From Micromonospora sp. CPCC 205371 (lineage in GTDB: Bacteria > Actinomycetota > Actinomycetes > Mycobacteriales > Micromonosporaceae): a DNA stretch of 36,304 bases. Below the pieces are notes generated by a model. It was given only the letters and a program-made list of their open reading frames with translations, was not told the origin of the DNA and ran no database searches. Within the stretch, counting starts at the first letter, position 1. The number at the start of each line of letters is the position of its first letter. A program made the translations under genes and the position numbers. The stretch spans positions 1-36,304 of the forward strand of contig NZ_JAIBNX010000017.1 in assembly GCF_026130045.1 (NCBI RefSeq). The letters are read 5' to 3'. Shown here one piece after another: positions 1,342-28,382 of this stretch.

Positions 1342-1757
1342 ACAATGACCGACGGTGGCGCCTGCGCCATCTGCCCGTGTTGCTCGTCGCGTCAGCGGTC
1401 GCGATGGTCGGCGCGGCCGTCGTGGGCGGCCTGACGCGCGGCGCAGCCGGTGCGGTCGGCGCGGCGGTGGGAGTGGCGCTCGTCACGGCCAGTTACACGC
1501 TTTCCACTGTGGTCCTCGCATGGGCCGACGCGATCAACCCACAGCTCGTTCTGCCCTTTGGGCTGGGCATCTACGTAGCGAAGTACAGCCTGCTCGGCGG
1601 CGTGATGATGATCGTCGCGACGGCCGACTGGGCCGGCTTGGTGCCGATGGGCTGGGGCGTCGCGGCGGGCGTCGTCGCGTGGACCGGCGTGCACATCTGG
1701 TGGATTACGAAAATCTGGCCGGCTAGCCGGGGCCCGGGAGTGGCGATCGAGGAGTAG
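1338..1757 (+). CDS. AtpI-like ATP synthase accessory membrane protein
   Basis: A 139-residue hydrophobic protein with about four predicted membrane segments (roughly residues 12-32, 36-62, 70-92 and 98-122) and short polar ends. Its position directly before the F1Fo operon, its size and its membrane layout match the ATP synthase subunit I (AtpI/UncI) group, which assists c-ring assembly in other bacteria. The primary sequence of this group diverges fast, so the assignment rests mostly on context. The ATG start overlaps the glyA stop by four bases. A 90-105 base gap without a hairpin separates it from the next gene. Confidence 0.65.
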   Translation: MNNDRRWRLRHLPVLLVASAVAMVGAAVVGGLTRGAAGAVGAAVGVALVTASYTLSTVVLAWADAINPQLVLPFGLGIYVAKYSLLGGVMMIVATADWAGLVPMGWGVAAGVVAWTGVHIWWITKIWPASRGPGVAIEE

Positions 1758-1862
1758 CGTACGGGCACAGACGACTCCAGTATCCCCGGCGCCCGCACAA
1801 GTGCCTTGCGTGGGGGGTGAGTCCTATCCGCCGGTAACGCGCCTGATATGGTTCGCCGCGTC

Positions 1863-2075
1863 ATGGCCGGTGACCAACCCCCCCAACAACCTGACGGCGG
1901 AGCCGGTCAGGGATGGGTGGCGATTGGATACCTCATTACCGGTATCGCGGTGTGGGGTCTCATCGGTTGGCTGGTCGATCGTTGGCTCGATCTCGGCGGG
2001 GTTCCCATCGGGATCGGAGCAATGGTCGGCGCGGCGGGTGGCGTCTACCTGATCGCCCGCCGGCTCGGCGCCTAG
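1863..2075 (+). CDS. AtpZ/AtpI-family small membrane protein
   Basis: About 70 residues: a short polar N-terminus, then two membrane helices separated by a conserved-looking GWLVDRWLD turn and a closing basic ARRLG end. This two-helix hairpin with a polar loop is typical of the AtpZ-type small proteins encoded at the head of bacterial atp operons, which have been proposed to help in ion handling or c-ring assembly. ATG at 1848 is an alternative start that adds five residues. Neither start has a clear Shine-Dalgarno sequence, and TATGGT at 1847-1852 could be a -10 box lying just before 1863. It ends 10 bases before atpB. Having both an AtpI-like and an AtpZ-like gene here is plausible but not proven. 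Confidence 0.65.
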   Translation: MAGDQPPQQPDGGAGQGWVAIGYLITGIAVWGLIGWLVDRWLDLGGVPIGIGAMVGAAGGVYLIARRLGA

Positions 2076-2085
2076 AGGAGGATCA

Positions 2086-2865
2086 ATGAGCGTACGGAGT
2101 CTCGCGAGCGAAGTCCCGTGGCCACCGAGCGTTGACGACTTCTACCTGCCCTCCGTGGTCGACGGCGCCTACCCCTGGTTGACCAAGGTCACGATCCTGG
2201 TCTGGATCGCAGCCGCGGCTCTGATCGTGTTCTTCCTGGTGACCTACCGCAATCCGCAGCTCGTGCCGACCAAGAGGCAGTGGCTGGCCGAGTCGGTCTA
2301 CGGCTTCGTGCGGAACAACATCGCCAAGGACATGATCGGGCACGAGGGTGTGCGTTTCGCGCCGTACCTGACCACCCTGTTCTGCTTCGTCCTGCTCACC
2401 AACCTCTTCGGGATCATCCCGGGCATCCAGATGTCGCCGAACTCGCACATCGCGTTCCCGACGATCCTCGCGGTGATCAGCTACGTGCTCTTCAACTACG
2501 TGGGCATCCGCCAGCACGGCTTCGCCAAGTACATGAAGGCGTCCCTGATCCCGCCGGCGCCGTGGTACATCCTGCCGCTCCTGGTGCCGATCGAGTTCGC
2601 ATCGACGTTCCTGTTCCGGCCGTTCACGCTGGCGGTCCGTCTCTTCGCCAACATGTTCGCCGGCCACATGATCCTGCTGGTGTTCACGCTCGGCGGCTTC
2701 GTGATGCTGAACTCCAGCGCACTGCTGGCGCCGGTTTCGCTGGTGTCCTGGCTGATGGCGATCGCGCTCACCTTCCTGGAGGCGCTGGTGGTCATCCTGC
2801 AGGCGTACGTGTTCACGGTCTTGACCGCCAGCTACGTGCAGGGTGCTCTCGCCGAACAGCACTGA
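2086..2865 (+). CDS. atpB: F1Fo ATP synthase subunit a
   Basis: Membrane stator subunit that forms the proton half-channels beside the c-ring. The 259-residue length is normal for actinobacteria. Five to six membrane segments are visible. The essential arginine is in the motif LAVRLFANMFAGH (Arg185, codon 2638-2640), followed by the usual C-terminal helices with QAYVFTVLTASY. The start is supported by a strong Shine-Dalgarno sequence (AGAGGAGG) just upstream. It opens the core order B-E-F-H-A-G-D and is followed by a 63-base gap with a hairpin before atpE. Confidence 0.97.
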   Translation: MSVRSLASEVPWPPSVDDFYLPSVVDGAYPWLTKVTILVWIAAAALIVFFLVTYRNPQLVPTKRQWLAESVYGFVRNNIAKDMIGHEGVRFAPYLTTLFCFVLLTNLFGIIPGIQMSPNSHIAFPTILAVISYVLFNYVGIRQHGFAKYMKASLIPPAPWYILPLLVPIEFASTFLFRPFTLAVRLFANMFAGHMILLVFTLGGFVMLNSSALLAPVSLVSWLMAIALTFLEALVVILQAYVFTVLTASYVQGALAEQH

Positions 2866-3156
<291 letters not shown>

Positions 3157-3183
3157 CCAGCCATCCCTGACCGGGAGGTAGTC

Positions 3184-3720
3184 ATGTTCGTTTTCGCCGC
3201 CGAGGGGGGCGAGGAGCACAACCCGATCATCCCGATCTGGCAGGAGATCGTGGTCGGCACGGTCGCTTTCGCGATCCTCTGCTACGTGCTGATGAAGTTC
3301 GTGTTCCCCCGCATGGAGCAGACCTTCAAGGCTCGGGTCGAGGCCATCGAGGGTGGGATCAAGCGGGCGGAGTCGGCGCAGGCCGAGGCCAACCAGCTCC
3401 TCGAGCAGTACAAGGCCCAGCTGGCCGAGGCGCGCACCGACGCCGCCCGGATTCGCGACGACGCGCGCGCTGACGCCGAAGGCATCCGGCAGGACGTCTT
3501 GGCGAAGGCCCGCGAAGAGTCCGACCGCATCATCGCGGCCGGCAAGGAGCAGCTCGCCGCCGAACGTCAGACCATCGTCCGGGAGCTGCGTGCCGAGGTC
3601 GGCACCATCGCGGTCGACCTGGCGAGCAAGATCGTGGGTGAGTCGCTGGCTGACGAGGCCCGCCGCAAGGGCACCGTCGAGCGGTTCCTGAGCGATCTCG
3701 AAAGCGCCGGGGCACGCTGA
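3184..3720 (+). CDS. atpF: F1Fo ATP synthase subunit b
   Basis: Peripheral-stalk subunit: one N-terminal membrane helix (about residues 18-38) followed by a long charged coiled coil rich in Ala, Glu, Lys and Arg (residues 40-150) that reaches up to the delta subunit on F1. The 178-residue length is normal. A GGGAGG Shine-Dalgarno sequence lies just before the ATG. The stop overlaps the atpH start by one base (TGATG), indicating translational coupling of the two stalk genes. Unlike mycobacteria, b and delta are separate polypeptides here. Confidence 0.96.
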   Translation: MFVFAAEGGEEHNPIIPIWQEIVVGTVAFAILCYVLMKFVFPRMEQTFKARVEAIEGGIKRAESAQAEANQLLEQYKAQLAEARTDAARIRDDARADAEGIRQDVLAKAREESDRIIAAGKEQLAAERQTIVRELRAEVGTIAVDLASKIVGESLADEARRKGTVERFLSDLESAGAR

Positions 3721-4541
3721 TGCAGGCCGCCAGCCGGGAGTCGTACACCGCCGCCGCCGAGCGGCTGGAGGCGTACGTCCGCCGGGCCAAGCCCGAAACC
3801 ATCGCGGGCGCCGCCGACGACCTGCTCGCCGTGGCCGACCTGCTGCGGCGCGAGCCGCGGCTGCGCCGGGCGCTCTCCGACCCGGCCCGTCCGGTCGAAG
3901 ACCGCACCGAGCTGGTCCGCAGCCTGCTCGGCGGCAAGGTCGGCGACGCCAGCCTCAAACTGGTGGCCGCGCTCGTCGACGGCCGCTGGTCGGCGCCGAT
4001 CGAGCTGCTGGAGGCCAGCGAGCGGCTGGGCGTCGAGGCGCTGCTGGCCAGCGCCGATCGCGCCGGCGACCTCGGCGAGGTCGAAGACGAGCTGTTCCGC
4101 TTCGGCCAGCTCGTCGCGGGCGATCCGCGACTCGCGGGTGCGCTGGGCGACGTGGTCGCGCCGTCGGCGCAGCGGGCCGAGCTGGCCCGGGCGCTCCTGT
4201 CCGGCAAGGCCAAGCCGGCCACCGTCCGGCTGGTCGAGGTGGCGCTCGGTGGCTTCGGCGGGCGCTCCTTCGATGCCGCGCTGACCCGCCTGGTCGAGCT
4301 GTCGGCCGAGCGGCGTGACCGGCAGGTCGCGTACGTCACCGTCGCGGCCCCGCTCAGTGACGAGGATGAGCGCCGCCTGGGCGCCAAGCTTTCGGAACTG
4401 TACGGTCGAGAGGTCTCCGTCAAGCAGTTGGTACATCCGGAGATCCTCGGCGGGATGAGCGTCCAGGTCGGTGCCGACCTGTACGACGGGACGGTCCTGC
4501 GCCGGCTCACCGACACCCGAAACGCGCTCGCGAAGCGCTAG
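3720..4541 (+). CDS. atpH: F1Fo ATP synthase subunit delta, long form with duplicated N-domain
   Basis: Connects the b-subunit stalk to the top of F1. At 273 residues it is about 95 longer than the E. coli protein. The extra length is explained by an internal duplication: residues about 33-112 and 122-200 both follow the pattern D/E-PRL-x2-AL-x-D-x4-P-x3-R-x-EL-x-R-x-LL-x-GK, so the helical N-domain occurs twice before the usual C-terminal part (about 203-273, with LSELYGREV and the GGMSVQVGADLYDGT block). The gene is coupled to atpF by TGATG. Long delta proteins are usual in actinobacteria; the duplication reading is my own alignment by eye. Confidence 0.95.
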   Translation: MQAASRESYTAAAERLEAYVRRAKPETIAGAADDLLAVADLLRREPRLRRALSDPARPVEDRTELVRSLLGGKVGDASLKLVAALVDGRWSAPIELLEASERLGVEALLASADRAGDLGEVEDELFRFGQLVAGDPRLAGALGDVVAPSAQRAELARALLSGKAKPATVRLVEVALGGFGGRSFDAALTRLVELSAERRDRQVAYVTVAAPLSDEDERRLGAKLSELYGREVSVKQLVHPEILGGMSVQVGADLYDGTVLRRLTDTRNALAKR

Positions 4542-4577
4542 ACCCAACGTCGAACCCCAGAGCAGAGGAAGCAGAGG

Positions 4578-6224
4578 ATGGCCGAGCTGACCATCTCGTC
4601 GGAGGAGATCCGCGGCGCTCTTGAGCGCTACGTCTCCTCCTATTCGCCCGACATCTCCCGCGAGGAGGTCGGCACCGTCGCCGATGCCGGTGACGGCATC
4701 GCGCACGTTGAGGGCCTGCCCTCGACCATGGCCAACGAGCTGCTGGAGTTCGAGGACGGCACGCTGGGTGTGGCGCTGAACCTCGACGTCCGCGAGATCG
4801 GTGTCGTGATCCTCGGCGAATTCGCCGGTATCGAGGAGGGCCAGCGCGTCAAGCGCACCGGCCGGGTGCTCTCCGTGCCCGTCGGCGACAAGTTCCTGGG
4901 GCGCGTGGTCAACGCGCTCGGCGAGCCGATCGACGCCATGGGCGACATCGAAAACGAGGGCTTCCGCGAGCTGGAGCTGCAGGCGCCGAACGTGATGGCC
5001 CGGCAGGGCGTCAGCGAGGCGCTGCAGACCGGCATCAAGGCCATCGATGCGATGACCGCTATCGGCCGGGGCCAGCGCCAGCTCATCATCGGCGACCGCA
5101 AGACCGGTAAGACCACGGTCGCGATCGACACGATCCTCAACCAGCGGGCCAACTGGCAGTCGGGTGACCCGAAGAAGCAGGTGCGCTGCATCTACGTCGC
5201 GATCGGCCAGAAGGCGTCCACGATCGCGTCGGTGAAGGGCATCCTCGAAGAGCACGGCGCGATGGAGTACACGACCATCGTCGCGTCGCCCGCGTCCGAC
5301 CCGGCCGGCTTCAAGTACATCGCCCCGTACGCCGGCTCGTCGATCGGCCAGCACTGGATGTACGGCGGCAAGCACGTGCTCATCGTCTTCGACGACCTGA
5401 GCAAGCAAGCCGAGGCCTACCGTGCCGTGTCGCTGCTGCTGCGCCGCCCGCCGGGCCGTGAGGCGTACCCGGGTGACGTCTTCTACTTGCACTCCCGGCT
5501 GCTGGAGCGCTGCGCCAAGCTCTCCGACGAGATGGGTGCCGGCTCGATGACCGGTCTGCCGATCATCGAGACCAAGGCGAACGACATCTCGGCGTTCATC
5601 CCGACCAACGTCATCTCCATCACCGACGGCCAGATCTTCCTGGAGTCGGACCTGTTCAACCAGGGCGTCCGGCCGGCGATCAACGTCGGCACCTCGGTCT
5701 CCCGGGTCGGTGGCGCCGCACAGGTCAAGCCGCTACGCAAGGTCGCCGGCCGGCTGCGGCTGGACCTCGCTCAGTACCGTGAGCTGGAGGCGTTCGCCGC
5801 GTTCGCCTCGGACCTGGACAAGTCGTCCCGCGCCCAGCTCGACCGCGGTGCTCGCCTGGTCGAGCTGCTGAAGCAGCCGAACTACTCGCCGTACCCGGTC
5901 GAGGAGCAGGTGGTGTCGGTGTGGGCCGGCACCGAGGGCAAGCTCGACGACATTCCGGTCGGCGAGGTTCGGCGCTTCGAGGCCGAGTTCCTGGAGTTCC
6001 TGCGCCACTCGTACAAGGGCACGCTCCAGTCGGTCGCCGACAACAACTGGGATGACGACGTCATCTCCACGCTCGACGAGGCGATCGCCAAGTTCAAGCA
6101 GATGTTCCTTGCCAAGGAAGACAAGCACCTTGGCAAGGAGGCGGAGGCGAAGGCTCTCGAGGGCGAGGAGAACCACGAGACGGTCACCCGGTACCGCAAC
6201 GCTCCTCCGCCCGAGAAGCAGTAG
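4578..6224 (+). CDS. atpA: F1Fo ATP synthase subunit alpha
   Basis: Non-catalytic nucleotide-binding subunit of the F1 hexamer. The 548-residue length fits actinobacterial alpha subunits, which have a longer C-terminal tail than E. coli. The P-loop GDRKTGKT lies at residues 172-179. The family signature [14 protein letters not shown] is present. The C-terminal extension after about residue 510 is highly charged (Lys/Glu-rich). A purine-rich AGAGGAAG lies upstream of the ATG, in a 36-base gap after atpH, and atpG follows nine bases after the stop. Confidence 0.98.
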
Positions 6225-6233
6225 GGACGATCG

Positions 6234-8611
<2,378 letters not shown>

Positions 8612-8628
8612 TCCACGAGCATTCGGTC

Positions 8629-8661
8629 GCAGGCGTTCACCGGTTTCCGGTGGGCGCCTGC
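8629..8661 (+). terminator. Strong stem-loop after atpD
   Basis: The arm at 8629-8643 (GCAGGCGTTCACCGG) pairs with 8647-8661 (CCGGTGGGCGCCTGC) around a TTT loop: 15 pairs, two of them G-U. The following bases are only mildly T-rich. It probably acts as a terminator or partial attenuator that lowers read-through from the atp operon into the LCP gene and atpC. That role is inference from structure and place. Confidence 0.75.
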
Positions 8662-8708
8662 AACCGTTCTTGGCTGCCATCCGTCTTCCTAATTAGGGAA
8701 CGGAGGCA

Positions 8709-9821
8709 ATGTTGCGAAGATCGTCCGGCAAGCGCCGCCGCCTGCCGCGGTGGGCACTGGTCTGCACGGTGTTCGGTGCGCTGCTCATGCTGAGCAGCGG
8801 CGGCTTGCTGCTCGGCCAAGAGGTGCTGCTCGCCCGTTACGAGGGTGCGGTCGAGACCGCCGACCTCTTCGGCGACGAGGCGGCCGCGGCCGAGCCCAAG
8901 AAGAGCGACATCAAGGGTCCGCTGACCATGTTGCTCGTGGGCATCGACCCGCGCGCCAGCGACCCCAACAAGCCACCGCTCGCCGACTCGATCTTGATCC
9001 TGCACGTGCCCGAGGAGCTCGACCGGGCGTACCTCTTCTCCCTGCCGCGCGACCTCATCGTCGAGATCCCGAGCTTCCCGAAGGCGGAGTTTCGCGGCGG
9101 CAGGGACAAGCTCAACTCGGCCATGGCGTACGGCAGCAAGGTGCCCGGTCAGGTGAGGCCTGACCCCGCCCGCGGGTTCGAGCTGCTCTCCAAGACGATC
9201 AGCAACTACACCGGCATCAAGCGCTTCGACGCCGGCGCGATCATCAACTTCGACGGGTTCCGGAAGATCGTCGACGCCATGGGCGGCGTGACGATGACGC
9301 TCGACATCGACGTCCGGTCGGAGCACCTGCGGCCTGATGGCAAGGGCCGGACGGGCAACCCGAACGGCGAGGGCTACATCGGACCGCAGAAGGTGTACAA
9401 GAAGGGCACCCATCACCTGAAGGGCTGGGAGGCTCTCGACGTCGTGCGGCAGCGCAAGACGGTGGGCGGCGACTACGTGCGCCAGAAGCACCAGCAGCAG
9501 TTCATCAAGGCGATGGTCAACCAGGCGTTCAGCAAGGACGTGGTGACCAACCCGCTCAAGCTCGACAAGGTGCTGCGCGCCGCGGGCGAGTCCGTGGTCT
9601 TCAACGGGCGCGGTCACAGCGTCGTCGACTACGGCCTGGCGCTGCGCGACATCCGGTCAAGCTCGATCACGATGGTCAAGCTGCCGGGGCGGTCGATCGT
9701 CACCGGCGGTGACTACAGGGGCGAGGAGTTGCAGCCGGGCGCCAAGGACTTCTTCGCGTCGGTGGTCGACGGCACCGTCGACGAGTTCGTGGTGGCTCAC
9801 CCTGATTTCATCAACAAGTAA
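8709..9821 (+). CDS. LCP (LytR-CpsA-Psr) family cell-wall glycopolymer ligase
   Basis: Membrane-anchored enzyme family that transfers glycopolymers from lipid carriers onto peptidoglycan. The 370-residue protein has a basic N-terminus, one membrane helix (about residues 15-37) and an extracytoplasmic LCP domain. Hallmarks seen are [20 protein letters not shown] (binding arginines and aspartate) and the later [12 protein letters not shown]-x5-DYVRQKHQQ block. GGAGG lies just upstream of the ATG. A ten-base palindrome CCTAATTAGG (8688-8697) sits in its leader and could be a regulator site. Its placement between atpD and atpC is odd: the product has no role in ATP synthesis, so the location probably reflects insertion into the operon or shared growth-linked expression. 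Confidence 0.92.
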
Positions 9822-9836
9822 CGCTCACCACCCTCT

Positions 9837-9866
9837 TTGGGTCGGCGGTTCGGGCCCGTCTAGACT
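9837..9866 (+). promoter_or_regulatory. Candidate internal promoter for atpC
   Basis: TTGGGT (9837-9842) and TAGACT (9861-9866) are separated by 18 bases. TAGACT is the same -10 hexamer seen before meaA and the aldehyde dehydrogenase gene. Transcription starting near 9873 would leave a leader of about 25 bases carrying AAGGAG before the atpC GTG. This would let atpC be expressed despite the upstream hairpin and LCP gene. Confidence 0.55.
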
Positions 9867-9898
9867 CGATCCAATCCCCCGGGTGCAAGGAGACAGTG

Positions 9899-10192
9899 GT
9901 GGCACAGCAGCTTCACGTCGAGCTCGTAGCCGTCGAGGAGAAGGTCTGGACCGGCGAGGCCGAGATGGTCGTCGCCCGGACCACCGAGGGTGAGCTGGGT
10001 GTCCTGCCTGGCCACGCGCCGCTCCTCGGCCAGCTGGCCGAGCCCGGTCAGGTGCGCATCAAGCTCGCCGGTGGTGAGCAGATCACGTACGACGTGGCCG
10101 GCGGATTCCTCTCCGTCACGGGCGAGGGTGTAACGGTCCTTGCCGAGAGCGCCACGCCGGCGTCCCCGACGTCTCCCGCCGCGACGCACTGA
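9899..10192 (+). CDS. atpC: F1Fo ATP synthase subunit epsilon
   Basis: Rotor and regulatory subunit that binds gamma. The 97 residues comprise the N-terminal beta-sandwich with the family block [14 protein letters not shown] and the [16 protein letters not shown] strand. The C-terminal helical hairpin that inhibits ATP hydrolysis in E. coli is largely missing, replaced by an Ala/Pro/Ser tail; short epsilon subunits are common in actinobacteria. Two GTG codons are adjacent (9896 and 9899). The second is preferred because AAGGAG (9887-9892) is then six bases away and the N-terminus reads [12 protein letters not shown]. It is separated from atpD by the LCP gene. Confidence 0.95.
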
Positions 10193-10204
10193 CTCCGGCC
10201 GCCG

Positions 10205-10726
10205 ATGCAGATCTTGGAGTGGATCGGATTCGGCGTACTAGTCCTGCTCGCCGCGCTGGCGGTCCTCTTCATCCGCCGTGCGCTGATTGCCGGCGCCGGC
10301 AGCATCAGGCTCAACCTTCGCGTGTCCACGCTGCTCGTCGGGCGTGGCTGGTCACCGGGGTTCGGCCGGTTCGTCGGTGACGAGCTGCGCTGCTACCGGA
10401 TCTTCAGCTTCGCGATCCGCCCGAAGCGGGTGCTGTCGCGGCACGGGCTCGTGGTCGAGCGCCGGCGCAGCCCCGAGGGCCAGGAGCGCTTCTCGATGCC
10501 GTCCGACTGGGTGATCCTTCGCTGTCTCAGCCACCAGGCCCCGGTCGAGATCGCGATGGCGAAGTCGACGGTGACCGGGTTCATGTCGTGGCTCGAGGCC
10601 GCCCCTCCCCGGGCGGTCTCGTCGTTTCTGGGCCCTTCCCCGTCCCCCCCCCCTGCCTGGGTCCGCGGGTCGCGCCCGGCACCCATACCACGTCGCCGTC
10701 CGGGTTTGCCGTTCTCGCCAGGATGA
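10205..10726 (+). CDS. DUF2550-type membrane protein
   Basis: A protein of unknown function that follows atpC in actinobacteria. It has one N-terminal membrane helix (about residues 5-25) and then a basic cytoplasmic beta-rich domain with RVLSRHGLVVERRR and SHQAPVEIAM, ending in [12 protein letters not shown]. Family-like sequence stops near residue 138. The remaining 35 residues (Pro/Arg/Ser-rich) run antisense into the adenosyltransferase gene and are probably not a real domain. A ten-C homopolymer at 10644-10653 lies in this tail, so the true stop may be obscured. Confidence 0.8.
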   Translation: MQILEWIGFGVLVLLAALAVLFIRRALIAGAGSIRLNLRVSTLLVGRGWSPGFGRFVGDELRCYRIFSFAIRPKRVLSRHGLVVERRRSPEGQERFSMPSDWVILRCLSHQAPVEIAMAKSTVTGFMSWLEAAPPRAVSSFLGPSPSPPPAWVRGSRPAPIPRRRPGLPFSPG

Positions 10727-11228
10727 ACAGCAGATCCGACAACCTGTTGAGATACTTTGCCGGGAGAGTACTGGTTCGTGCGGGGTCCGCCTCGATCAGC
10801 GCCCACGCCTTCCGCTCGGCCCGCCGGGCGGTCGTGCGCGCCACATGAAGCAGGGCGGCGCCCGGCGTGCCGCCCGGCAGTACGAAGGAGTTCAAAGTGG
10901 ACAGCCGGTCGTTGAACTCGTCGCACCAGCCTTCGAGGCGCGTCACGTACTCCTCTGTGACCCGCAGCGCGATCTCCGACTCCAGGTCGGGGTTGCCCAG
11001 GTCGGCGCCCGCGTCGAAGAGGTCGTGCTGCACCCGGGTCAGCACGGCGCGCACCTCCTCGGAGAGCTGGCCGAGCGCCAGTGCCACCCCGATGGCCGCG
11101 TTGCACTCGTCGACGTCGGCGTATGCGGCGATGCGCGGATCGGTCTTCGGCACCAGCTCGTTGTTGACGAGCCGGGTCGAGCCGGTGTCGCCGGCCTTCG
11201 TGTAGATGCGGGTCAGGTGCACGGCCAT
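10581..11228 (-). CDS. PduO-type cob(I)alamin adenosyltransferase
   Basis: Transfers adenosyl from ATP to cob(I)alamin to make adenosylcobalamin. Family motifs are the N-terminal [18 protein letters not shown]-binding segment, [16 protein letters not shown], the RTTARRAER basic block and the [12 protein letters not shown] helix. The start chosen is ATG at 11228, giving 215 residues; longer readings overlap murA and have no homology-like sequence. TAGGCT lies seven bases before the ATG, a leaderless-promoter arrangement. The last 30 or so residues after WVPG are Gly/Pro/Arg-rich and overlap the convergent DUF2550 gene. Its product would serve the B12-dependent MeaA mutase encoded about 4 kb away. 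Confidence 0.9.
10644..10653. repeat. Ten-C homopolymer in two convergent gene tails
   Basis: A run of ten C falls in the overlapping 3' ends of the DUF2550 and adenosyltransferase reading frames. Such runs are prone to length variation or miscalls and would shift both tails. I checked runs one shorter or longer: neither creates a nearby stop in the frames I read, so it does not simply explain the long tails. Confidence 0.5.
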
Positions 11229-11271
11229 GAGCCTCAGCCTAGAACCACCCGCTGCCTCTACGATTGCCGGC
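11229..11271. promoter_or_regulatory. Compact divergent leaderless promoters
   Basis: The 43-base gap holds TAGGCT on the - strand (bases 11241-11236), seven bases before the adenosyltransferase ATG. On the + strand it holds TACGAT (11259-11264), seven bases before the murA GTG. Both fit TANNNT boxes for transcripts starting at or next to the start codon. Neither gene has a Shine-Dalgarno sequence. The -35 regions would lie inside the opposite gene. Confidence 0.5.
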
Positions 11272-12552
11272 GTGGATGTGATCCAGGTACACGGCGGTGC
11301 CCGGCTGGCCGGTGACGTGTCGGTGGTGGGTGCCAAGAACTCAGCTCTCAAGCTGATGGCGGCGGCTCTCCTCGCCTCGGGCGAGTCGGTGATCACCAAC
11401 GTTCCCCGGATCACGGATATCGCGATCATGGCTGAGGTGCTGCGCCGGCTCGGCTGCTCTGTCTCGTACGACGAGGGCGACGTCACGATCGAGGTTCCTG
11501 ACGAGCCCGGCACCGAGGCCGACTACGACCTGGTACGCCGCCTGCGCGCCTCCATCTGCGTGCTCGGGCCGCTGCTGGCCCGGCGCGGGTACGTGCGGGT
11601 GGCCCACCCGGGCGGCGACGCGATCGGCTCGCGCGGGCTCGACATGCACGTCGACGGGCTGGCCAGGATGGGCGCCGAGATCTCCGGCGAGCACGGGTTC
11701 GTCATCGCCTCGGCGCCGCGCGGGCTGCGTGGCGCGACGATCTGGCTGGACTTTCCGAGCGTCGGCGCCACCGAAAACCTGCTGATGGCCGCCGTGTTGG
11801 CGCGGGGCGAGACGGTGATCGACAACGCTGCCCGCGAGCCCGAGATCGTCGACATCTGCGCGATGCTCACGTCGATGGGCGCCCGGATCGAAGGCGCCGG
11901 CACGTCCACCCTGTACATCCAGGGCGTCGACGGTCTGAGCCCCGTGCGGCACGCCACGATCGGTGACCGCATCGTGGCCGGCACCTGGGCCTTCGGCGCG
12001 GCGATGACCCGCGGCGACGTGACGGTGAGCGGGGTCGACGCGGCGTGGCTGGAGATCGCGCTCGACAAGGTGGTGGCGGCGGGCGGTCTGGTGGAGTCGC
12101 AGCCGGACGGCTTCCGGGTGCGGATGGACCGCCGGCCGACCTCGGTCGACGTGGTCACGCTGCCGTTCCCGGGCTTCCCGACCGACCTGCTGCCGATGGC
12201 GATCGGGCTGGCGGCGGTCAGCGACGGAGCGTCCCTGATCACCGAGAACATCTTCGATGGCCGCTTCATGTTCGTGAACGAGATGGCCCGGCTGGGCGCC
12301 GACATCCGCACCGACGGCCACCACGCGGTGGTACAGGGGCGGGAGCGGCTGTCGAGCGCGCCGGTGGCGGCCACGGACATCCGCGCCGGCGCCGGGCTGG
12401 TGATCGCCGCGTTGTGCGCCGACGGGATGACCGAGGTGTCGCGCGTGCACCACATCGACCGGGGCTATCCCGGCTTCGTGGCAGATCTCCGGCGCCTTGG
12501 CGTCAAGGTCGAGCGCGTCGAGGCCCCAGAAGACCCCACGTTCACGTTCTGA
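11272..12552 (+). CDS. murA: UDP-N-acetylglucosamine 1-carboxyvinyltransferase, Asp-type
   Basis: First committed step of peptidoglycan synthesis: adds enolpyruvate from PEP to UDP-GlcNAc in the cytoplasm. The 426 residues have the EPT fold, with GAKNSALK near the N-terminus, GGRLxG-like early strands and the closing [10 protein letters not shown] helix. The loop normally reading Cys-x-I-G-x-R-P has Asp116 in place of Cys ([13 protein letters not shown]). A Cys-to-Asp change at this site is known in mycobacterial MurA and removes the residue that fosfomycin alkylates. The start is GTG 11272, beginning VDVIQVHGG. The longer reading from 11206 overlaps the divergent gene and lacks family similarity. 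It converges with the next gene, three bases away. Confidence 0.96.
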
Positions 12553-22573: not shown

Positions 22574-23465
22574 ATGCCCAGTGCAGAGCACGAAACCCCC
22601 ATCGCCTTACTCAAGCTGGACCCCAGTGTGGCGGTCTGGCTGCTGGCGAACGTGTTCGATGTCAAGGTTCCCGACTATCACCACGCTCGCGCGGAGGCGA
22701 CGGACGTGCGGGTGCTGGTCCCGCGCACCTTCCACGCCGACGGCATTTTCGTGTTTCGCGACCCGGCCGACGAGCCGCAGATTGCGGTCGTGTTCGAGGT
22801 CCAGCGCGAGTGGGACATCAGAAAGCGGCGCACCTGGGAAGCTCTACACAGCCCAGCTCGAAGCCGAGCTGGACGTCGACGCCGCGCTGCTCGCGCTCTG
22901 CCCTGATCCGGCGATCGCTCGCCGGTACCGCGACCTGTTCGCCTTCGAGAGTCTGAGCCTGGTGTTGCGGCCCTTCGTTCTCACGTATGACGACGTGCCG
23001 CTGGTCGTCGATGTGGAGCTGGCTCGGGCGAAGCCGGCGCTGGCCGTCTTCTCGGCCATCTGCCACCTCAACGATGCCGAGGTAGAGACCGCTTTCCCCG
23101 CGCTGGCGGAGGCCCTGCGAACACTCGGCCCGACGGAGGCGGACGCGTACTATGACGTTGTACTCTCTGGGTTGCCGGTGGCAGCCCGGACTCGCTGGGA
23201 GGCGTTCATGACCACCGCCATGAACTACGAGTTCAAAAGCGACTTCGCCAAGCACTACCTGGGCCTCGGCAAGGCGGAAGGCAAGGCGGAAGGCAAAGCG
23301 GAAGGCGAGGCGCGGGCGGTGCTGATCGTGCTCGAAGGGCGCGGCGTGGCTGTGCCTGACGACGTTCGTGACCAGATCCTCAGCTGCACCGACCTGGACC
23401 AGCTCGGCACCTGGCTGCGCCGCGCCGGCAACGCGACGACCATCGACGACGTCATCGGCAGGTAG
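22574..23465 (+). pseudogene. Frameshifted Rpn/YhgA-like PD-(D/E)XK nuclease-family gene
   Basis: The first frame (22574 to about 22838) encodes MPSAEHETPIALLKLD, then DGIFVFRD and VVFEVQREWDIRKRRTW. The second frame (about 22839-23465) continues with KLYTAQLEAELDVDAALLALCPD and a C-terminal tail rich in Gly-Lys-Ala-Glu repeats. Removing one G from the GGG at 22836-22838 restores one protein of about 296 residues with the order usual for the actinobacterial Rpn/transposase-like family (D-x-n-E-V-Q nuclease core, then a helical tail). The change is either a real single-base insertion that inactivates the gene or a sequencing error. Family members in E. coli promote RecA-independent recombination; the role here is unknown. 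A truncated second copy of the tail follows. Confidence 0.8.
23268..23315 (+). repeat. Tandem 12-base repeat encoding G-K-A-E
   Basis: Four consecutive 12-base units starting GGCAAGGCGGAA (units at 23268, 23280, 23292 and 23304, the last two diverging) lie inside the Rpn-type gene and encode GKAE GKAE GKAE GEAR. Copy number could vary by slippage without breaking the frame. Confidence 0.75.
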
Positions 23466-23503
23466 GTCTTGGCGCGCACTCGCGAGGCGCGGTGCGCAAG
23501 GTT

Positions 23504-23528
23504 TTGGCCGGTGGGGGATTACGGCCAA
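23504..23528. repeat. Inverted repeat between the two Rpn-type copies
   Basis: TTGGCCG (23504-23510) and CGGCCAA (23522-23528) are inverted around 11 bases. It could be a weak terminator, an operator, or a trace of the duplication. No T-tract follows. Confidence 0.35.
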
Positions 23529-23541
23529 TCAGTTCAATGGG

Positions 23542-23547
23542 TAGACC
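23542..23547 (+). promoter_or_regulatory. Possible leaderless -10 box of the truncated copy
   Basis: TAGACC lies exactly six bases before ATG 23554, one base off the TAGACT seen elsewhere in the window. Confidence 0.3.
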
Positions 23548-23553
23548 ATTCCC

Positions 23554-23808
23554 ATGAGCTACGAGTTCAAAAGCGACTTCGCTAAGCACTACATAGGGAT
23601 TGGCAAGGCCCGGGGCGAGGCCCGGGGCTGGGCGCGAGCGGTGCTGATTGTGCTCGAGGGGCGCGGTGTGGCGGTGCCTGACGACCTTTGCAAGCAGATC
23701 CTCGACTGCACCGACCTCGACAAGCTCGAAACCTGGCTACGACGCGCCGCCACCGCGACAACTGTCGACGCGAGCAGGTCGGCGGCCTGGCTAGCGGGCG
23801 AAGAGTAG
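23554..23808 (+). CDS. Truncated duplicate of the Rpn-type C-terminal tail
   Basis: 84 residues closely matching the last ~85 residues of the preceding gene: MSYEFKSDFAKHYIGIGKA against MNYEFKSDFAKHYLGLGKA, then RAVLIVLEGRGVAVPDD and LETWLRRA against LGTWLRRA. The nuclease core is absent and the GKAE repeats are reduced to a short GEARG stretch. It looks like the remnant of a tandem duplication. A start codon and a -10-like TAGACC at the right distance leave open that it is expressed, for example as a tail-only partner. It overlaps the end of the convergent membrane-protein gene by 18 bases. Confidence 0.6.
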   Translation: MSYEFKSDFAKHYIGIGKARGEARGWARAVLIVLEGRGVAVPDDLCKQILDCTDLDKLETWLRRAATATTVDASRSAAWLAGEE

Positions 23809-24480
23809 TGACAGGGCGCAGCCGGCGCACAGGCCGCCCAGGACCGTCAGGCCGGTTGCGCCGGTGTCGAGGCGGCTGTTGAACTGGCGGTCGACCCAGA
23901 TCGCGGCCACCGGCACGCTGGTGAACGGTGCGACGAGAAACGCCAGCCAGCCCAGCAGTCGCAACGGCCACTGCAGCCCGGTGTCGAAGTGTGCGATGGT
24001 CACCAGCCCGCCCGCCACCAGGCCGGTCATGGTGGCGCCGAGTGCGCCGAGCGGTGGTAGGAGCGGCAGTATCCAGCGCGGCAGCGGAGGCCGGGGCGCG
24101 CCCCGGCGGGCCTGGTCCATCCGGCGGGCGGGGCCGTCGAGGAGTTCCCCCGCAGCCATGGCGGGAGCGGGACTGGCCGGGAGCAGGTCGACCGGCGTGG
24201 GCGGCGGCAGGTCACCGAGGCGGCGGCCGCGCCATCCGCGTACCCGGCGAAGCTCGTCCCACAGGCGGGTCGCCTCCCGATCGGCCTTGACCACGGCGGT
24301 GGCCGCGGCACCGGCTCGCCGGTCGGCCTCGCCGGCTTGGGCGTTGGCGAGCGCCAGCTCGGCCGCGGCGACCGCAGCGCCGTCCTGGTAGGAGCGTTCC
24401 GCGTTGGCCAACTCGGCGTCCCGCCGGTTGGCCGCGGCGGCGAGGGCGCCCACCAACCGCCGGTAGTCGTCAGCAGTCAT
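23791..24480 (-). CDS. Coiled-coil membrane protein of the FtsK-type operon
   Basis: 229 residues of unrecognised family. Residues 1-85 are Ala/Glu/Arg-rich and predicted helical or coiled coil. Residues about 90-135 form a Pro-rich linker with basic patches. Three membrane segments follow at about 139-160, 170-195 and 207-226, ending LSLLFAR. It is the last gene of the four-gene operon, and its ATG lies inside the end of the ATPase gene (11-base overlap), so it is translated with it. It is a plausible membrane anchor or pore component for the ATPase; that role is inference from context. Confidence 0.75.
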   Translation of the reverse strand: MTADDYRRLVGALAAAANRRDAELANAERSYQDGAAVAAAELALANAQAGEADRRAGAAATAVVKADREATRLWDELRRVRGWRGRRLGDLPPPTPVDLLPASPAPAMAAGELLDGPARRMDQARRGAPRPPLPRWILPLLPPLGALGATMTGLVAGGLVTIAHFDTGLQWPLRLLGWLAFLVAPFTSVPVAAIWVDRQFNSRLDTGATGLTVLGGLCAGCALSLLFAR

Positions 24481-27064
24481 AGGGGATGATGACCTCCGGT
24501 GCCCGGTGCACCGAGCGGTCGAAGAAGAGGGCCCGGCGCGGTCGGGGGTACCAGGCCGGGCCGCCCGGTTGCGGGCTGAGCGGCGCCAGCTCGCTGCCGT
24601 GTACGTCGAGCGCTACCCAGGCGCCCATCGCGTCGAAGCGCGCACCGACACCGCCCAGGTCGTCACGCAGCCGGGAGACGCCCCGCCACCAGCCCAAGAC
24701 GTGGGTACGCCGTTCGGGACCGCGGGTCAGCACGGTGCGCAGCCCGGAGAGGTTGCCGGCGTCCCACGCGTACCCGAAGACGTAGTGCGGCTCGTCGGCC
24801 GCCGCCTCCGCGAGTTCGTCGCAGAGTGCGGCGATCAGGTCGGGCGCGGTGTCGGCGTCGTACCAGCGGGCGCCGGGCAGCGCCGCGTGCAGCAGGCCCG
24901 CGGCGGAGGAGGCGTCGTCGTCGAGACAGACGATGCTGTACCGGGCGGGTTTCCCGGACGCGGCCAGTGACCGCCCGGCGGCGCCCAGGATCGCGCACGC
25001 CTCGGCGGTCCGGGTGCCGATGACGGCGAGGTTGCGTCCGGGCGCCCGGGGCAGCCGCAGCACCGCCGGACGGGGCCGCACATCGATCGTCTCGCCCAGA
25101 ACGGCCCCGCCCAGGGCGGCCGCGTCGAACGACTCCGGCAGCGTGGGGACCGCGTCGCCGTCGAAGAGGCGTGGTGGCTCCAGTCCTTCCGGCCGGGCGT
25201 GCCACAGCTTCTCCTGCAGCGCACGCCACGTGGTCCGGTCGCTGGCGTCAGGCAGCCGCACGATCCGGTTGGCGGTGGAGACCCCCGAGTCGGCGTTGAC
25301 GACGGCGTGAAAGCGCGGGATCACGTCTGCGGCCAGGTTCGTGTCCGCCAGGATGCGTCGCGCCTTGGGCAGGCCGATCCGCAGCGTGAACTGGGCGACC
25401 AGCGCCGACCGCCCCCAGAGCGCCTCGATGCCCGACACGTCCTGCGACGCGAGCACCAGGTGGATGCCCTGCGAGCGCCCTCGGCGGGCGAGGTCTTCGA
25501 GCAGGCTGACCGCCTCGTTGGCGAGCGCGTCGCGGCCGGCGAGCAGCACCTGGAACTCGTCGATGACCGCCACGATCCGTGGCCAGTGACCACTCGGGTC
25601 TTCGGCGCGTAGCTCGGCGAGCTTGGTGGCCTCGTGGCGCTTGGCCTCGGACGCCCGGCGGCGCAGTTCGTCGCCGAGGTGGCGCAGCAGGGCCAGTCCG
25701 AACTCCCGATCGCTGTTGACGTTGACACCGACGAGCCGCACCTGGGGCAGCCAGCTCGGGTCGCGGCGTCCCGGTGCGAACCGGGCGAACGACACACCCT
25801 CCTTGAAGTCCAGCAGGTACAGCGCCAGCTCGTCGGGGGAGTACCTGGCGGTGAGCGCGCCCAGCCAGGCGTAGATCAGGTTGGTCTTGCCCGACCCCGA
25901 CGGCCCGCCGATCAGCGCGTGCGGCGGGTCGTCGCCGAGCAGTACCTCGACCAGGTCACCGTCCGGGCCGTCGCCGAGCGGGGCGACCAGGCCGCTGGCG
26001 GAGCACTCGTTCCACAGCTTCTCGGGCAGCAGGTCGGCGAACTCGGCGGCGGGAGGGCCGGCGTTCATCAGATCGGCGAGTTCGCGGCAGACGGCGGCGA
26101 TCCGATCGGCGGGCGGCGCCGGGTCGAGCTTGACGGGCAGGTCACCGGTGATGTCGCAGCTCGCCGTGGCGGCGCTTACGGCGATCCGCTCGACCGTCGC
26201 GTGCGTCTCGATCGGCAACCCGCGAGCCAGCACGTGAACGCCGCACGCCACACCGGTGCGAATGATCCTGTCGAGCTGCGCGCGCTGCCCATTGGTCAGG
26301 CTGCCGGCGGTCGCCTCGTCGCCCAGCAGCACGACGAGCCGCCACGGCTCGGGCCGGCGGGCGGCGGTGGCGGCCGTCAACTCGGCCAGCGACGCGTACT
26401 CGCCCGCCAGCACGCTCTCGTTGATGCGGCGGATCTGTTCGACCAGGTCGTCGAGCATGCCGGTAAGGCCGCCGGGCCCGACGAAGGTGAGCAGGTCCGC
26501 GTTGCCCAGCGGTGCGAACCCGGCGAGGCTCCCGCCGAGCTGCTCCGGGTCGTACACGGTCAGCCGCACCTCGCCGGGGCGGGTGCTGCCGAGTACCCGC
26601 AGCAGCAGGGCGGCGATCACACCGTCCACTCTGGAGGCGTCACCCGTGAGGGACAGGTGCGCGTGGTCCAGCAGTGGCACCAGCGCGGGCAGCGCCGGCT
26701 CGTACCCGAGCGTCCCGATCCGCAGTAGGCCGGGGCGCCGGCCGCGCTCCGGTTCGGTCGGGCGCCAGGCGCTCCACGACGCGCCCGCCGCACCGGGCGC
26801 GCACGCCGCCGCGATTGCCGTGAGGTCGGCCGACAGCGTGGCGGTCTGCTGCTGGAAGCGGTCCTGGATCGCGCGCCGCGCGGCTTCCCGCTCGGCGGCG
26901 AGCGCGATGAGCCGGTCGGCGTGCGCGTCGTTCGCCTCGTCGCGGTGGCGGTGGGCCTCCACCCGCGCGGTCTCCGCCGCGCCGAGTGCCGCCAGTGTCA
27001 GCCCGCGCGCGAGTGCGAGGTCGCGTCGCACATCGGCCACGAGGCCGGCTCTGGCGCTAGCCAC
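24470..27064 (-). CDS. FtsK/SpoIIIE-type ATPase with three RecA-like segments
   Basis: 864 residues. An N-terminal coiled coil (about 10-85) precedes a first RecA-like segment (about 120-300) without a usable P-loop. A central ATPase follows with Walker A GGPSGSGKT (Lys393), FtsK-type LLDFKEGVSF, Walker B AVIDEF (Asp502-Glu503) and the sensor-like LASQDVSG. The C-terminal RecA-like segment has a degenerate nucleotide loop (LAVIGTRTAEA). One active and two degenerate domains recall EccC/EssC of type VII secretion, although no transmembrane segment is visible here. GTG 27064 is chosen: it overlaps the upstream stop by eight bases and has AAGGAG upstream; the longer reading from 27160 is antisense-like Arg/Ser/Pro sequence. 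The substrate (DNA or protein) is unknown. Confidence 0.88.
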   Translation of the reverse strand: MASARAGLVADVRRDLALARGLTLAALGAAETARVEAHRHRDEANDAHADRLIALAAEREAARRAIQDRFQQQTATLSADLTAIAAACAPGAAGASWSAWRPTEPERGRRPGLLRIGTLGYEPALPALVPLLDHAHLSLTGDASRVDGVIAALLLRVLGSTRPGEVRLTVYDPEQLGGSLAGFAPLGNADLLTFVGPGGLTGMLDDLVEQIRRINESVLAGEYASLAELTAATAARRPEPWRLVVLLGDEATAGSLTNGQRAQLDRIIRTGVACGVHVLARGLPIETHATVERIAVSAATASCDITGDLPVKLDPAPPADRIAAVCRELADLMNAGPPAAEFADLLPEKLWNECSASGLVAPLGDGPDGDLVEVLLGDDPPHALIGGPSGSGKTNLIYAWLGALTARYSPDELALYLLDFKEGVSFARFAPGRRDPSWLPQVRLVGVNVNSDREFGLALLRHLGDELRRRASEAKRHEATKLAELRAEDPSGHWPRIVAVIDEFQVLLAGRDALANEAVSLLEDLARRGRSQGIHLVLASQDVSGIEALWGRSALVAQFTLRIGLPKARRILADTNLAADVIPRFHAVVNADSGVSTANRIVRLPDASDRTTWRALQEKLWHARPEGLEPPRLFDGDAVPTLPESFDAAALGGAVLGETIDVRPRPAVLRLPRAPGRNLAVIGTRTAEACAILGAAGRSLAASGKPARYSIVCLDDDASSAAGLLHAALPGARWYDADTAPDLIAALCDELAEAAADEPHYVFGYAWDAGNLSGLRTVLTRGPERRTHVLGWWRGVSRLRDDLGGVGARFDAMGAWVALDVHGSELAPLSPQPGGPAWYPRPRRALFFDRSVHRAPEVIIPYDC

Positions 27065-27926
27065 CGACCTTCTCCTTCTCCGCCAGCTCCTTGATGACCA
27101 TGGCCAGCTCGTCGGCGTTCCGGCCGGTGGCGCCGAGGAGGGCGGCCACGAGGACCGCACCGGTGACCGCGGAGTCGACCGGGTGGACCGGCGCCTCTAC
27201 GGTCGGCGGCGGCGCGTGGCAGGCCCGGGCCAGCAGTTCGTCGACCACGACCTCGTCCACCGCGGGCAGCAGTGGACGCACCCGGGGGAGCGCGGCGCGG
27301 CGTACCTCCGGCAGGTCTTCGGCCTGCGGCGGGTGACCGAGCAGTTCGGCGGCGAGGTACCGCAGCGGCGCGGCCCCCACCGCGGACAGTCCGAGCCCCA
27401 CCGCCGGGCCGGCGCCGATCAGCTCGCGGCGCAGCTTCCCGCGGTCTTCGGCGAGCGCGGCCCGCGCGCAGCGGTGCAGCAGCTCGGGGCTGCTCAGAGC
27501 GCCCCCGCCACGAGCTCCGGTTTGGTCTCCCGTTTGATCGGTCAGCCGGTCGATGGCCTCCGCCCAGAAGTTGCCGAGCTTCGGTGGCTCCTGCTCGCGC
27601 CGGGTTCGGCGCGGGCCGGCCGGTGCCAGCGCCGCCCGCCAGTCCCGGTCCGGCGGCGGTACCGCCTCGCGGGGCAGGCCGATCGACTGGAGGTACCCGG
27701 TCAGGGCCTCGCGTGCGGCGAGCATGGCGCCGGCGGCATGGTCGAGGTGCTCACCCGCCGCGGTCAGCGACGGTGTCGGCGCCACCGTCGCGCTGGCCTG
27801 TGTCACCCAGGCGAGCAGGCCGTGAGCGCTGCGCAGCCGGTCAGCCGCCGAGGCGACCTGCCCGATCGGCAGCTCCTCGCCGACCTCCTGGATGCGATAC
27901 GCCAGCGCGTGCAGCAGCGAACTCAT
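27057..27926 (-). CDS. Unrecognised soluble protein of the FtsK-type operon
   Basis: 289 residues, Ala/Leu/Pro-rich, without signal peptide or membrane helix. Residues 1-85 are predicted helical (ALAYRIQEVGEELPIGQVASAADRL and AGAMLAAREALTGYL). A Pro/Arg-rich linker with RRTRREQEPP follows at about 95-115. The C-terminal half is helical with LPAVDEVVVDELLARA and ends in charged ELAEKEKVGG. The ATG lies four bases after the preceding small gene's stop, and its own stop overlaps the ATPase start. It could be an adaptor or chaperone for the ATPase; this is inference. Confidence 0.75.
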   Translation of the reverse strand: MSSLLHALAYRIQEVGEELPIGQVASAADRLRSAHGLLAWVTQASATVAPTPSLTAAGEHLDHAAGAMLAAREALTGYLQSIGLPREAVPPPDRDWRAALAPAGPRRTRREQEPPKLGNFWAEAIDRLTDQTGDQTGARGGGALSSPELLHRCARAALAEDRGKLRRELIGAGPAVGLGLSAVGAAPLRYLAAELLGHPPQAEDLPEVRRAALPRVRPLLPAVDEVVVDELLARACHAPPPTVEAPVHPVDSAVTGAVLVAALLGATGRNADELAMVIKELAEKEKVGG

Positions 27927-27930
27927 GGCT

Positions 27931-28191
27931 TCAGAGCGCCGCGGCGTACTGCTGGGCCTGTTCCATCGCGCCGAGCGTGGCGGTCAGGCAGTCCTCGAGC
28001 TCGGTGGCGGCCTGAGCGAGCGCGGCCTGGGCGGAGGTGACCGACTCGTGCCCGCTGCCCTCGACCGCCGCCGCGAGGCTGATCTGTGCCTCGCCGAGCT
28101 TCTCGTTGGCGGCCCGGACGGCCTCCTGGCCTTCCTGCACGTGCGTCATCGCGGCGTCGATGGCCGCCTTCACCTCGGCAACACTCGCCAA
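27931..28191 (-). CDS. Small helical-hairpin protein, first gene of the FtsK-type operon
   Basis: 86 residues with no Trp and no Pro, almost entirely Ala/Glu/Gln/Leu heptad-like sequence. Two long helices (about 3-42 and 50-86) flank a turn with EGSGHES. Size and helix-turn-helix hairpin layout recall WXG100 (Esx) proteins, the small partners or substrates of EccC-type ATPases, but the WXG motif itself is absent. The start is TTG 28191 with a G-rich Shine-Dalgarno sequence (GGGGGG) upstream, and TAAAAT about 30 bases further upstream is a -10 candidate. High expression of a small first gene would suit a substrate or structural subunit; this is inference. Confidence 0.75.
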   Translation of the reverse strand: MASVAEVKAAIDAAMTHVQEGQEAVRAANEKLGEAQISLAAAVEGSGHESVTSAQAALAQAATELEDCLTATLGAMEQAQQYAAAL

Positions 28192-28382
28192 CGGAACCCC
28201 CCTTTAGGTATGAAACAAGGGGATTTTAGGCCATTTATTGCTGAGCTCGGTCACGTATGGCTGCGTGGCGTTCACAGTGTGTCGCAGGGGGTTCCTGTGT
28301 TGCGTCGGTCACACTGGCATCGGCGGTGCGTGGGATACATTTGTTAAACAGACGGTAAAATTTCCGCAAAAGATAGCTTCCC
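28192..28382. promoter_or_regulatory. Divergent promoter region, AT-richer than its surroundings
   Basis: This 191-base gap separates the FtsK-type operon (-) from the dehydrogenase operon (+). It contains a minus-strand -10 candidate TAAAAT (ATTTTA at 28223-28228) and a plus-strand TAAAAT (28356-28361). It also has an inverted repeat CAGTGTG (28275-28281) / CACACTG (28310-28316) and a short palindrome TGTTAAACA (28342-28350). No good -35 boxes were found. The repeats could bind regulators of either operon. Confidence 0.5.

Follow-up and report, generated by a model that had tools for sequence, protein, structure and literature searches.

The window analysed here, a stretch of 36,304 nucleotides from Micromonospora sp. 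CPCC 205371, carries on its minus strand a run of four closely packed genes, designated P0001 to P0004, whose positions and principal features are as follows (aa, amino acids; TM, transmembrane; D1, the intact ATPase domain of P0003).

28192..28205, minus strand: purine-rich AAAGGGGGG, a probable ribosome-binding site immediately 5′ of the P0001 TTG, read from the sequence only
27931..28191, minus strand: P0001, 86 aa, TTG start, a probable WXG100-like helical hairpin, as judged from weak profile matches
27057..27926, minus strand: P0002, 289 aa, an apparently hairpin-like N-terminus and a conserved C-terminal domain
24470..27064, minus strand: P0003, 864 aa, GTG start, a TM-less EccC/EssC-like ATPase
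25883..25909, minus strand: Walker A motif of D1, GGPSGSGKT, residues 386-394 of P0003
25556..25573, minus strand: Walker B motif of D1, VAVIDE, residues 498-503 of P0003
23791..24480, minus strand: P0004, 229 aa, a coiled coil (by eye) and then three TM helices

P0001 and P0002 are separated by a 4-base gap, P0002 and P0003 overlap by 8 bases, and P0003 and P0004 by 11 bases; the placement, sizes, gap and overlaps that an earlier note had given for four packed minus-strand genes have all been confirmed from the sequence. Comparison of four copies of the operon (the window, L009, L012, and L097) by the NG86 method gave dN/dS values of 0.02-0.07 for P0001, 0.21-0.37 for P0002, 0.11-0.21 for P0003, and 0.27-0.46 for P0004, so that all four ORFs evolve as genes, with dN/dS far under 1 in each, and P0001, having the lowest values, is the best conserved among them. 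Antisense ORFs of up to 594 aa lie across the operon and were passed over by the codon model. The neighbours scanned in the window are housekeeping or metabolic genes, with dehydrogenases, a TIM barrel, DUF4126, NucS, an ABC transporter, 3HCDH, GH43, and two ORFs without matches, while an ATP synthase operon and MurA were recognized by eye farther from the operon. Two plus-strand ORFs of 227 and 84 aa at 22782-23808 have no Pfam match at 0.001, and the 84-aa ORF shares 18 bases with the end of P0004.

Profile and structure comparisons mark P0003 as a TM-less relative of the type VII secretion ATPases EccC and EssC. Against curated families it matches EccCa (TIGR03924) at 3.5e-25, EssC at 1.2e-14, EccCb at 6.8e-10, and FtsK at 0.0043, all under the full-length cut-offs; the TIGR03924 match covers residues 123-543 with 88.9 bits vs. 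a cut-off of 509 and begins at profile position 180, the segment preceding D1 being aligned with the part of EccCa that lies ahead of its first ATPase domain. The best PDB match is Thermomonospora EccC 4nh0 (3e-21; profile 7.3e-40), and the closest named matches, in Phytohabitans suffuscus and P. maris, are ATPases 83% identical to P0003. An FtsK_SpoIIIE domain was detected at E 1.4e-15, and the domain scan of P0003 gave no match to the FtsK gamma domain. No TM segment was found (maximum 19-residue hydropathy 1.27). In D1, G387 of Walker A and D502 of Walker B are invariant in a 21-row alignment, and P388, G390, G392, K393, and T394 are conserved at 90% or above. Since the EccCa alignment, the Walker motifs of D1, a C-terminal fold without a P-loop, and a weak D0-D1 similarity all agree, the layout of P0003 is an N-terminal coil, a degenerate D0, an intact D1, and a degenerate D2, which upholds the earlier description of one intact and two degenerate RecA-like segments, D1 by its whole motifs, D2 by fold, and D0 by the EccCa match. 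The similarity of the pre-D1 segment to D1 is weak and seen in some relatives (best 9e-5, in L086). Structure models were built on alignments limited to the sequences of the window and L009-L012 and are poor, with a mean pLDDT of 43.6 for P0002 and 46.0 for P0003, and that of P0003 was used only for its confident C-terminal domain; there, residues 667-859 lack a P-loop and superpose over about 170 residues on FtsK, EssC, and EccC motors at Z about 13, followed by other RecA-like folds, many at Z 10-11. A long N-terminal helix at residues 2-87 is predicted by the same low-confidence model. Two PADLOC matches of P0003, mad8 (8.7e-16) and SspH (1.2e-14), were set aside, both falling inside the FtsK-type ATPase domain.

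P0004 has three 19-residue segments with a mean hydropathy of at least 1.6, placing TM helices at about residues 144-162, 176-194, and 210-228; the membrane protein of coiled coil and three helices described earlier is thus recovered, its helices by hydropathy and its coil by eye. Window P0004 has no match in Pfam, and one of 32 homologues touched EccB at 0.036, alongside many unrelated families.

P0001 probably forms a hairpin akin to those of WXG100 proteins but lacking their tryptophan, its two-helix shape being drawn from weak family matches. It resembles WXG100 (PF06013) in its length, in a weak but full-length match (E 0.15), in a turn glycine placed by eye, and in a conserved C-terminal tyrosine, and differs from it in having no tryptophan and in scoring 12.8 bits, under the Pfam gathering threshold of 27.3. 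The equivalent of the WXG motif, by eye, is V43-E44-G45 (28057-28065), of the form hydrophobic-x-Gly, and the C-terminus is YAAAL (27934-27948); G45-S46, Y82, and L86 are invariant over 25 rows. Neither the WXG tryptophan nor YxxxD/E is found in P0001, the WxG motif is absent from P0001 and P0002 alike, and P0001 has no TM segment (maximum 19-residue hydropathy 0.76). For the window protein, DUF1090 (0.0099) and the exonuclease VII small subunit (0.027) score ahead of WXG100, all under cut-off. Among the homologues Pfam most often returns WXG100 (15/25 at E <= 0.1, best 9e-5), followed by the exonuclease VII small subunit (10/25, best 0.0027) and DUF6244 (7/25, best 0.0099), and since these last two also match, coiled-coil composition adds noise to the P0001 matches. 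Residues 1-82 of P0002, ending in YLQSI, align with the P0001 profile to its end (P 1.4e-4, probability 53%), and a P0002 profile in turn finds P0001-type hairpins (4.8e-5 in L143), which suggests that the P0002 N-terminus is itself hairpin-like over about these residues. The C-terminal domain of P0002 is conserved in a 23-row alignment, and none of the Pfam toxin families matches it; on both grounds a reading of window P0002 as a polymorphic toxin was rejected.

The operon is widely kept in its own family. P0003 matches 183 of 200 Micromonosporaceae genomes at E <= 1e-30; the best match is <= 1e-200 in 171 of them and weaker in 12 (a diverged paralogue or an incomplete genome), and 17 genomes have none. 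P0001 is present in 173/200 (E <= 1e-5), namely all 171 with the close ATPase together with G002 (7e-9) and G059 (82% complete), and P0002 in the same 171, so that the 29 genomes without a close ATPase hold P0001 in two cases and P0002 in none; the identity of these sets comes from by-eye comparison of listed genomes, with unlisted negatives obtained by elimination. Co-occurrence, which had been put forward as a sign of a real system, is thus nearly perfect at the genome level (171/171 with both partners). Such counts are inflated by relatedness, yet genera g43 and g32 each mix set-bearing genomes with one lacking the set.

Gene order was read from 35 loci of Micromonosporaceae, each selected for its close ATPase. 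A P0004 homologue directly follows the ATPase in all 35 and is its constant membrane partner in this family, while P0001 precedes it in 25 and P0002 in 23, with two further cases of P0002 in frame with the ATPase (L083 and L098); P0001, P0002, and P0004 are all called in 24. The genes were called by a codon-usage caller, on which the counts depend: it called no ATPase in L100 and L101, shortened window P0003 and P0001, and missed P0001 in L080 and P0002 in L073, both of which were found by tblastn. Among the ten loci without a called P0001, L070 lies at a contig edge, L080 has the gene by tblastn, and L011 and L105 are the same locus, leaving seven distinct loci, all of the window type and four of them in genus g30, with the ATPase and P0004 only. 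All seven genomes carry P0001 and P0002 elsewhere, and therefore an ATPase without its partners, which the earlier note had named as evidence against a joint system, occurs by locus (8/35, seven distinct) and not by genome. A protein of 438-458 aa, membrane by eye, takes the place of P0001/P0002 upstream of the window-type ATPase in L010, L011, L095, L096, and L102; this replacement occurs in five of the seven partner-less loci, mostly in genus g30. The source genome itself has at least three copies of the system, in the window, apparently split over contigs C188 and C204, and on C180. Single frames joining P0002 to the ATPase occur in L083 (1241 aa, 6592-10317), L098 (1171 aa), and L205 (1265 aa, genome G164, 1060-4857); that of L098 is probably a frameshift, because at its junction the normal P0002 tail reappears in a shifted frame, and the other two, joined through a low-complexity tail, may be real; no argument here is built on such fusions. 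In L206-L209 the four genes are separate and, judged by size, ordered as usual.

Outside Micromonosporaceae, P0003 as a query matched 24 of 396 phylum genomes at 1e-20, including two Micromonosporaceae and many EccC-looking ones, whereas the diverged member L151 matched 51 of 345 class genomes (13 of 127 genera) at 1e-30, and relatives of the L092 ATPase were found in 3 of 61 genomes of its family. In a tree of D1 domains (47 rows, midpoint-rooted only), 26 system ATPases picked from 76 loci group with one further row (L062) at support 94/89, and 12 EccC/EssC-type domains group separately (83/87); the FtsK row sits on a long branch and its placement is uncertain, and P0003 D1 is not near the EccC copies of its own genome. 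The further row, from genome G572, is an ATPase whose D1 falls within the system group.

A P0001 profile searched against 1258 proteins of 79 loci gave 16 matches outside the core Micromonosporaceae loci at E <= 1e-5, of which 15 lie near a called ATPase and on its strand, 14 at +2 and one at -1; the 16th, L140, is a source-genome copy at a contig end. Family f91 supplies 11 of the 14 genes second after the ATPase and diverged Micromonosporaceae copies the other 3, and weaker matches (E 0.0009 to 1) are system hairpins mixed with a few unrelated proteins. A second signature is the C-terminus: when proteins of 75-105 aa lying within four genes of the ATPase and on its strand were compared with others, a terminal Yxxx[LI] was found in 44 of 63 (25/26 in core loci and 19/37 in other loci) vs. 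2 of 70 short proteins elsewhere, both of these being system members. The weak WXG100 matches, the genomic position, and this tail support the earlier view of the 86-aa protein as a partner of the ATPase.

A trio of ATPase, coil/TM protein, and hairpin recurs widely, and not everywhere. Of 41 non-core Actinomycetota loci with a called ATPase, 18 have a short Yxxx[LI] neighbour and 23 have none, the latter including the third-type copies L139, L148-L150, and L153-L155 as well as L197, L198, and L203, and also L093, L099, L143, L152, L200, and L201, whose hairpins end otherwise; in L093, L200, and L201 a protein containing Trp matches WXG100 below threshold. Eleven f91 loci (L189-L196, L199, L202, L204) consist of the ATPase, a second protein, with TM segments in three of three tested, and an 87-aa hairpin. 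No TM was found in the single neighbour tested at each of L158, L092, and L099, and no trio in L146 or L147. L099 (genome G352, 4182-11715) has the ATPase relative beside a JAB protease (5.4e-9) and a ThiF/E1-like protein (1e-28), which make up a ubiquitin-like conjugation set, along with a 157-aa protein without a Pfam match and a 93-aa hairpin-like protein.

Some of these relatives adjoin genes of the Hsp70 system. The fullest case is L151 (genome G121), where DnaK (1.6e-113), DnaJ-TPR (1e-7), and GrpE (3.3e-17) accompany a core of ATPase, a coil protein with one TM, and an 86-aa hairpin (WXG100 0.019), and where a P0002-like hairpin protein ends in an EndoU RNase domain (2.3e-8, above cut-off). 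EndoU was seen in this one relative only, and the contig could be foreign, because G121 is listed at 12% contamination. L092 has DnaK and GrpE by Pfam, a J-like gene by eye, the ATPase, and three hairpins of 81-85 aa; in L091 a DnaK C-terminus was recognized by eye, alongside DnaJ-TPR; in L188 DnaK is accompanied by two hairpins and a protein that matches TPR below threshold, and Pfam shows neither DnaJ nor GrpE there; a DnaJ-TPR gene occurs in L186 and, by clustering, a DnaJ-like gene in L152. A search for further Hsp70-linked loci at E <= 1e-80 returned 2 of 22 and 1 of 7 genomes, all three known beforehand, and therefore it did not show diversity in the effector slot. In L186 (genome G801, 8048-10828) a stop codon splits the ATPase into ORFs of 711 and 210 residues, the L151 and L187 copies being single ORFs.

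Among described systems the nearest is the TM-less EssC-like ATPase that accompanies WXG100 proteins in CoCoNuT loci; it has an N-terminal coiled coil instead of the FHA and TM parts, three ATPase domains with the central one alone active, and two WXG100 proteins, one without WxG, and has been proposed as part of defence (PMC11090510). For a stand-alone form of such an EssC-like system the same paper cites Anantharaman et al. 2012 (PMC11090510). Matched by that description and not by sequences, P0003 is alike in lacking TM segments, in its N-terminal coiled coil, and in its sole active central domain, but the window operon differs in that both partners lack WxG, a dedicated coil/TM gene is present, and the set is kept in most genomes of a family; no VWA, McrB-type GTPase, or coiled-coil nuclease is among the scanned window neighbours. 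With EccC/EssC proper, P0003 shares the alignment of its pre-D1 segment and D1 with EccCa and its helical partners, but the operon departs from ESX and T7SSa/b in having no TM in the ATPase, one active domain, no WxG, Yxxx[LI] instead of YxxxD/E, and a separate D1 group, and none of EccB, EccD, EccE, or mycosin is among the scanned window neighbours. ESX substrates carry YxxxD/E, a signal extended to HxxxD/ExxhxxxH (PMC3935865). The earlier argument that missing WXG and TM speak against an ESX system stands for canonical ESX, but the CoCoNuT class, as far as its description goes, shares both a TM-less ATPase and one WXG100 protein without WxG. The Hsp70-linked relatives recall the GAP1-N2 GTPase conflict systems, in which a chaperone set (HSP70, GrpE, DnaJ fusions) stands in an operon with NTPases; in that paper the term WXG is absent from the main body and FtsK-HerA appears in the reference list only (PMC7159879). 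From FtsK/SpoIIIE DNA translocases P0003 differs by the lack of a gamma domain match and of N-terminal TM helices. In the Micromonospora lupini genome paper, several FtsK/SpoIIIE genes are listed as eccC, among which a P0003-type ATPase may be included (PMC4182475). The literature search found no description of the four-gene operon.

What is established is the homology of the motor, the ATPase-P0004 neighbour pair in Micromonosporaceae, the co-occurrence by genome, and the tail signature of the P0001 family. Beyond this we propose that a membrane-docked type-VII-like ATPase acts on hairpin clients, probably moving or loading them, a prediction that in our judgement is about evenly poised between right and wrong. 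P0003 would be an EccC/EssC-type motor, probably hexameric, without a TM anchor of its own, and its N-terminal coiled coil would bind that of P0004, docking the motor at the membrane. Its dedicated clients would be the hairpin protein P0001 and the hairpin-bearing P0002, which are expected to pair as WXG100 proteins do; the C-terminal Yxxx[LI] would mark them, as a counterpart of the ESX YxxxD/E signal, and ATP hydrolysis would load or move hairpin proteins across or into the membrane. The "pared-down type VII-like module" of the earlier note was largely right in anatomy (an EccC/EssC ATPase, a WXG100-like partner, and a membrane partner), transport staying a proposal. In Micromonosporaceae the operon has the look of a function inherited vertically, not of a mobile defence island, and P0001 is so strongly conserved that in this family it is more likely a working partner than a weapon. 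In rarer relatives an Hsp70 set and, in one case, an EndoU RNase are coupled to the core, and therefore its general task is probably the handling of helical-hairpin cargo, including toxic cargo; the fusion in L151 means that the P0002-like slot can carry a toxin elsewhere. More tentatively, and in our view with a somewhat smaller chance of being right, these loci may form a separate type-VII-like translocase lineage, with a TM-less motor, a coil/TM anchor, and tryptophan-less hairpin cargo bearing a Yxxx[LI] address tag, kept by most of one family and having Hsp70-coupled branches elsewhere, one of them with a hairpin-toxin fusion.

Several observations weigh against translocation of clients. 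No channel component or mycosin was seen among the scanned neighbours, the top conservation of P0001 is unusual for an exported effector, seven loci have the ATPase and P0004 alone, and 23 of the 41 distant loci are without a Yxxx[LI] neighbour; at the level of sequence, P0001 lacks the WXG tryptophan and YxxxD/E and in the window scores better with two other families, and the conserved C-terminal domain of P0002 has no match among Pfam toxin families. The Hsp70-system genes beside some relatives fit cytosolic work equally well. The main alternative is that the ATPase, held at the membrane by P0004, remodels or sequesters hairpin-tagged proteins inside the cell (in stress, cell death, or the release of anti-phage effectors), with Hsp70 help in some branches and no export. 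We regard this as possible though rather doubtful: the chaperone genes adjoining six ATPase relatives (L151, L092, L188, L091, L186, L152), the EndoU RNase on the P0002-like protein of L151, the lack of channel genes among the scanned neighbours, and the defence role proposed for CoCoNuT-linked relatives (PMC11090510) all suit it, but a membrane protein adjoins the ATPase in 35/35 core loci, the motor and hairpin are related to export partners, the set occurs in 171/200 genomes among housekeeping genes, unlike defence islands, and the Hsp70-linked branch is sporadic (1/7 and 2/22 genomes). That P0003 instead hands P0001 and P0002 over to a canonical EccB/D/E channel encoded elsewhere draws on three further contigs of the source genome with multi-domain EccC-like ATPases (C151, C143, C460), but is improbable given that P0001 lacks YxxxD/E, that P0003 has its own membrane partner, and that its D1 is not near those copies in the tree. 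Least probable of all, an FtsK-type DNA pump with helical accessory proteins, the DNA-handling option of the earlier note, gains from the FtsK_SpoIIIE domain and from a degenerate C-terminal domain that fits FtsK motors as well as EccC (Z 13.5), yet has nothing in its favour beyond shared FtsK ancestry, with EccC/EssC profiles far ahead of FtsK (3.5e-25 vs. 0.0043), no gamma domain match, and WXG100-like partners.

If the proposal of a membrane-docked motor with hairpin clients is true, the half of type VII secretion made up of motor and substrates would be a free-standing module in most Micromonosporaceae (171/200), often in several diverged copies, and a small four-gene system in non-pathogens would let one ask what a minimal EccC-type machine does. 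It would also lend itself to studying how hairpins lacking WXG and YxxxD/E are recognized and why Hsp70 is linked to some relatives.

The third diverged ATPase copy has surroundings of its own, adjoining FolE/FtsH/HPRT-like genes in most of L139 (source genome, C180), L141, L143, L148, L150, L153, L155, L090, L145, L149, and L154; the other flank of the first seven of these shows, by eye, a VirB4-type secretion/conjugation-like cluster. In L090 (genome G003, 7947-10766) the paralogue has a degenerate D1 P-loop, its frame remaining open.
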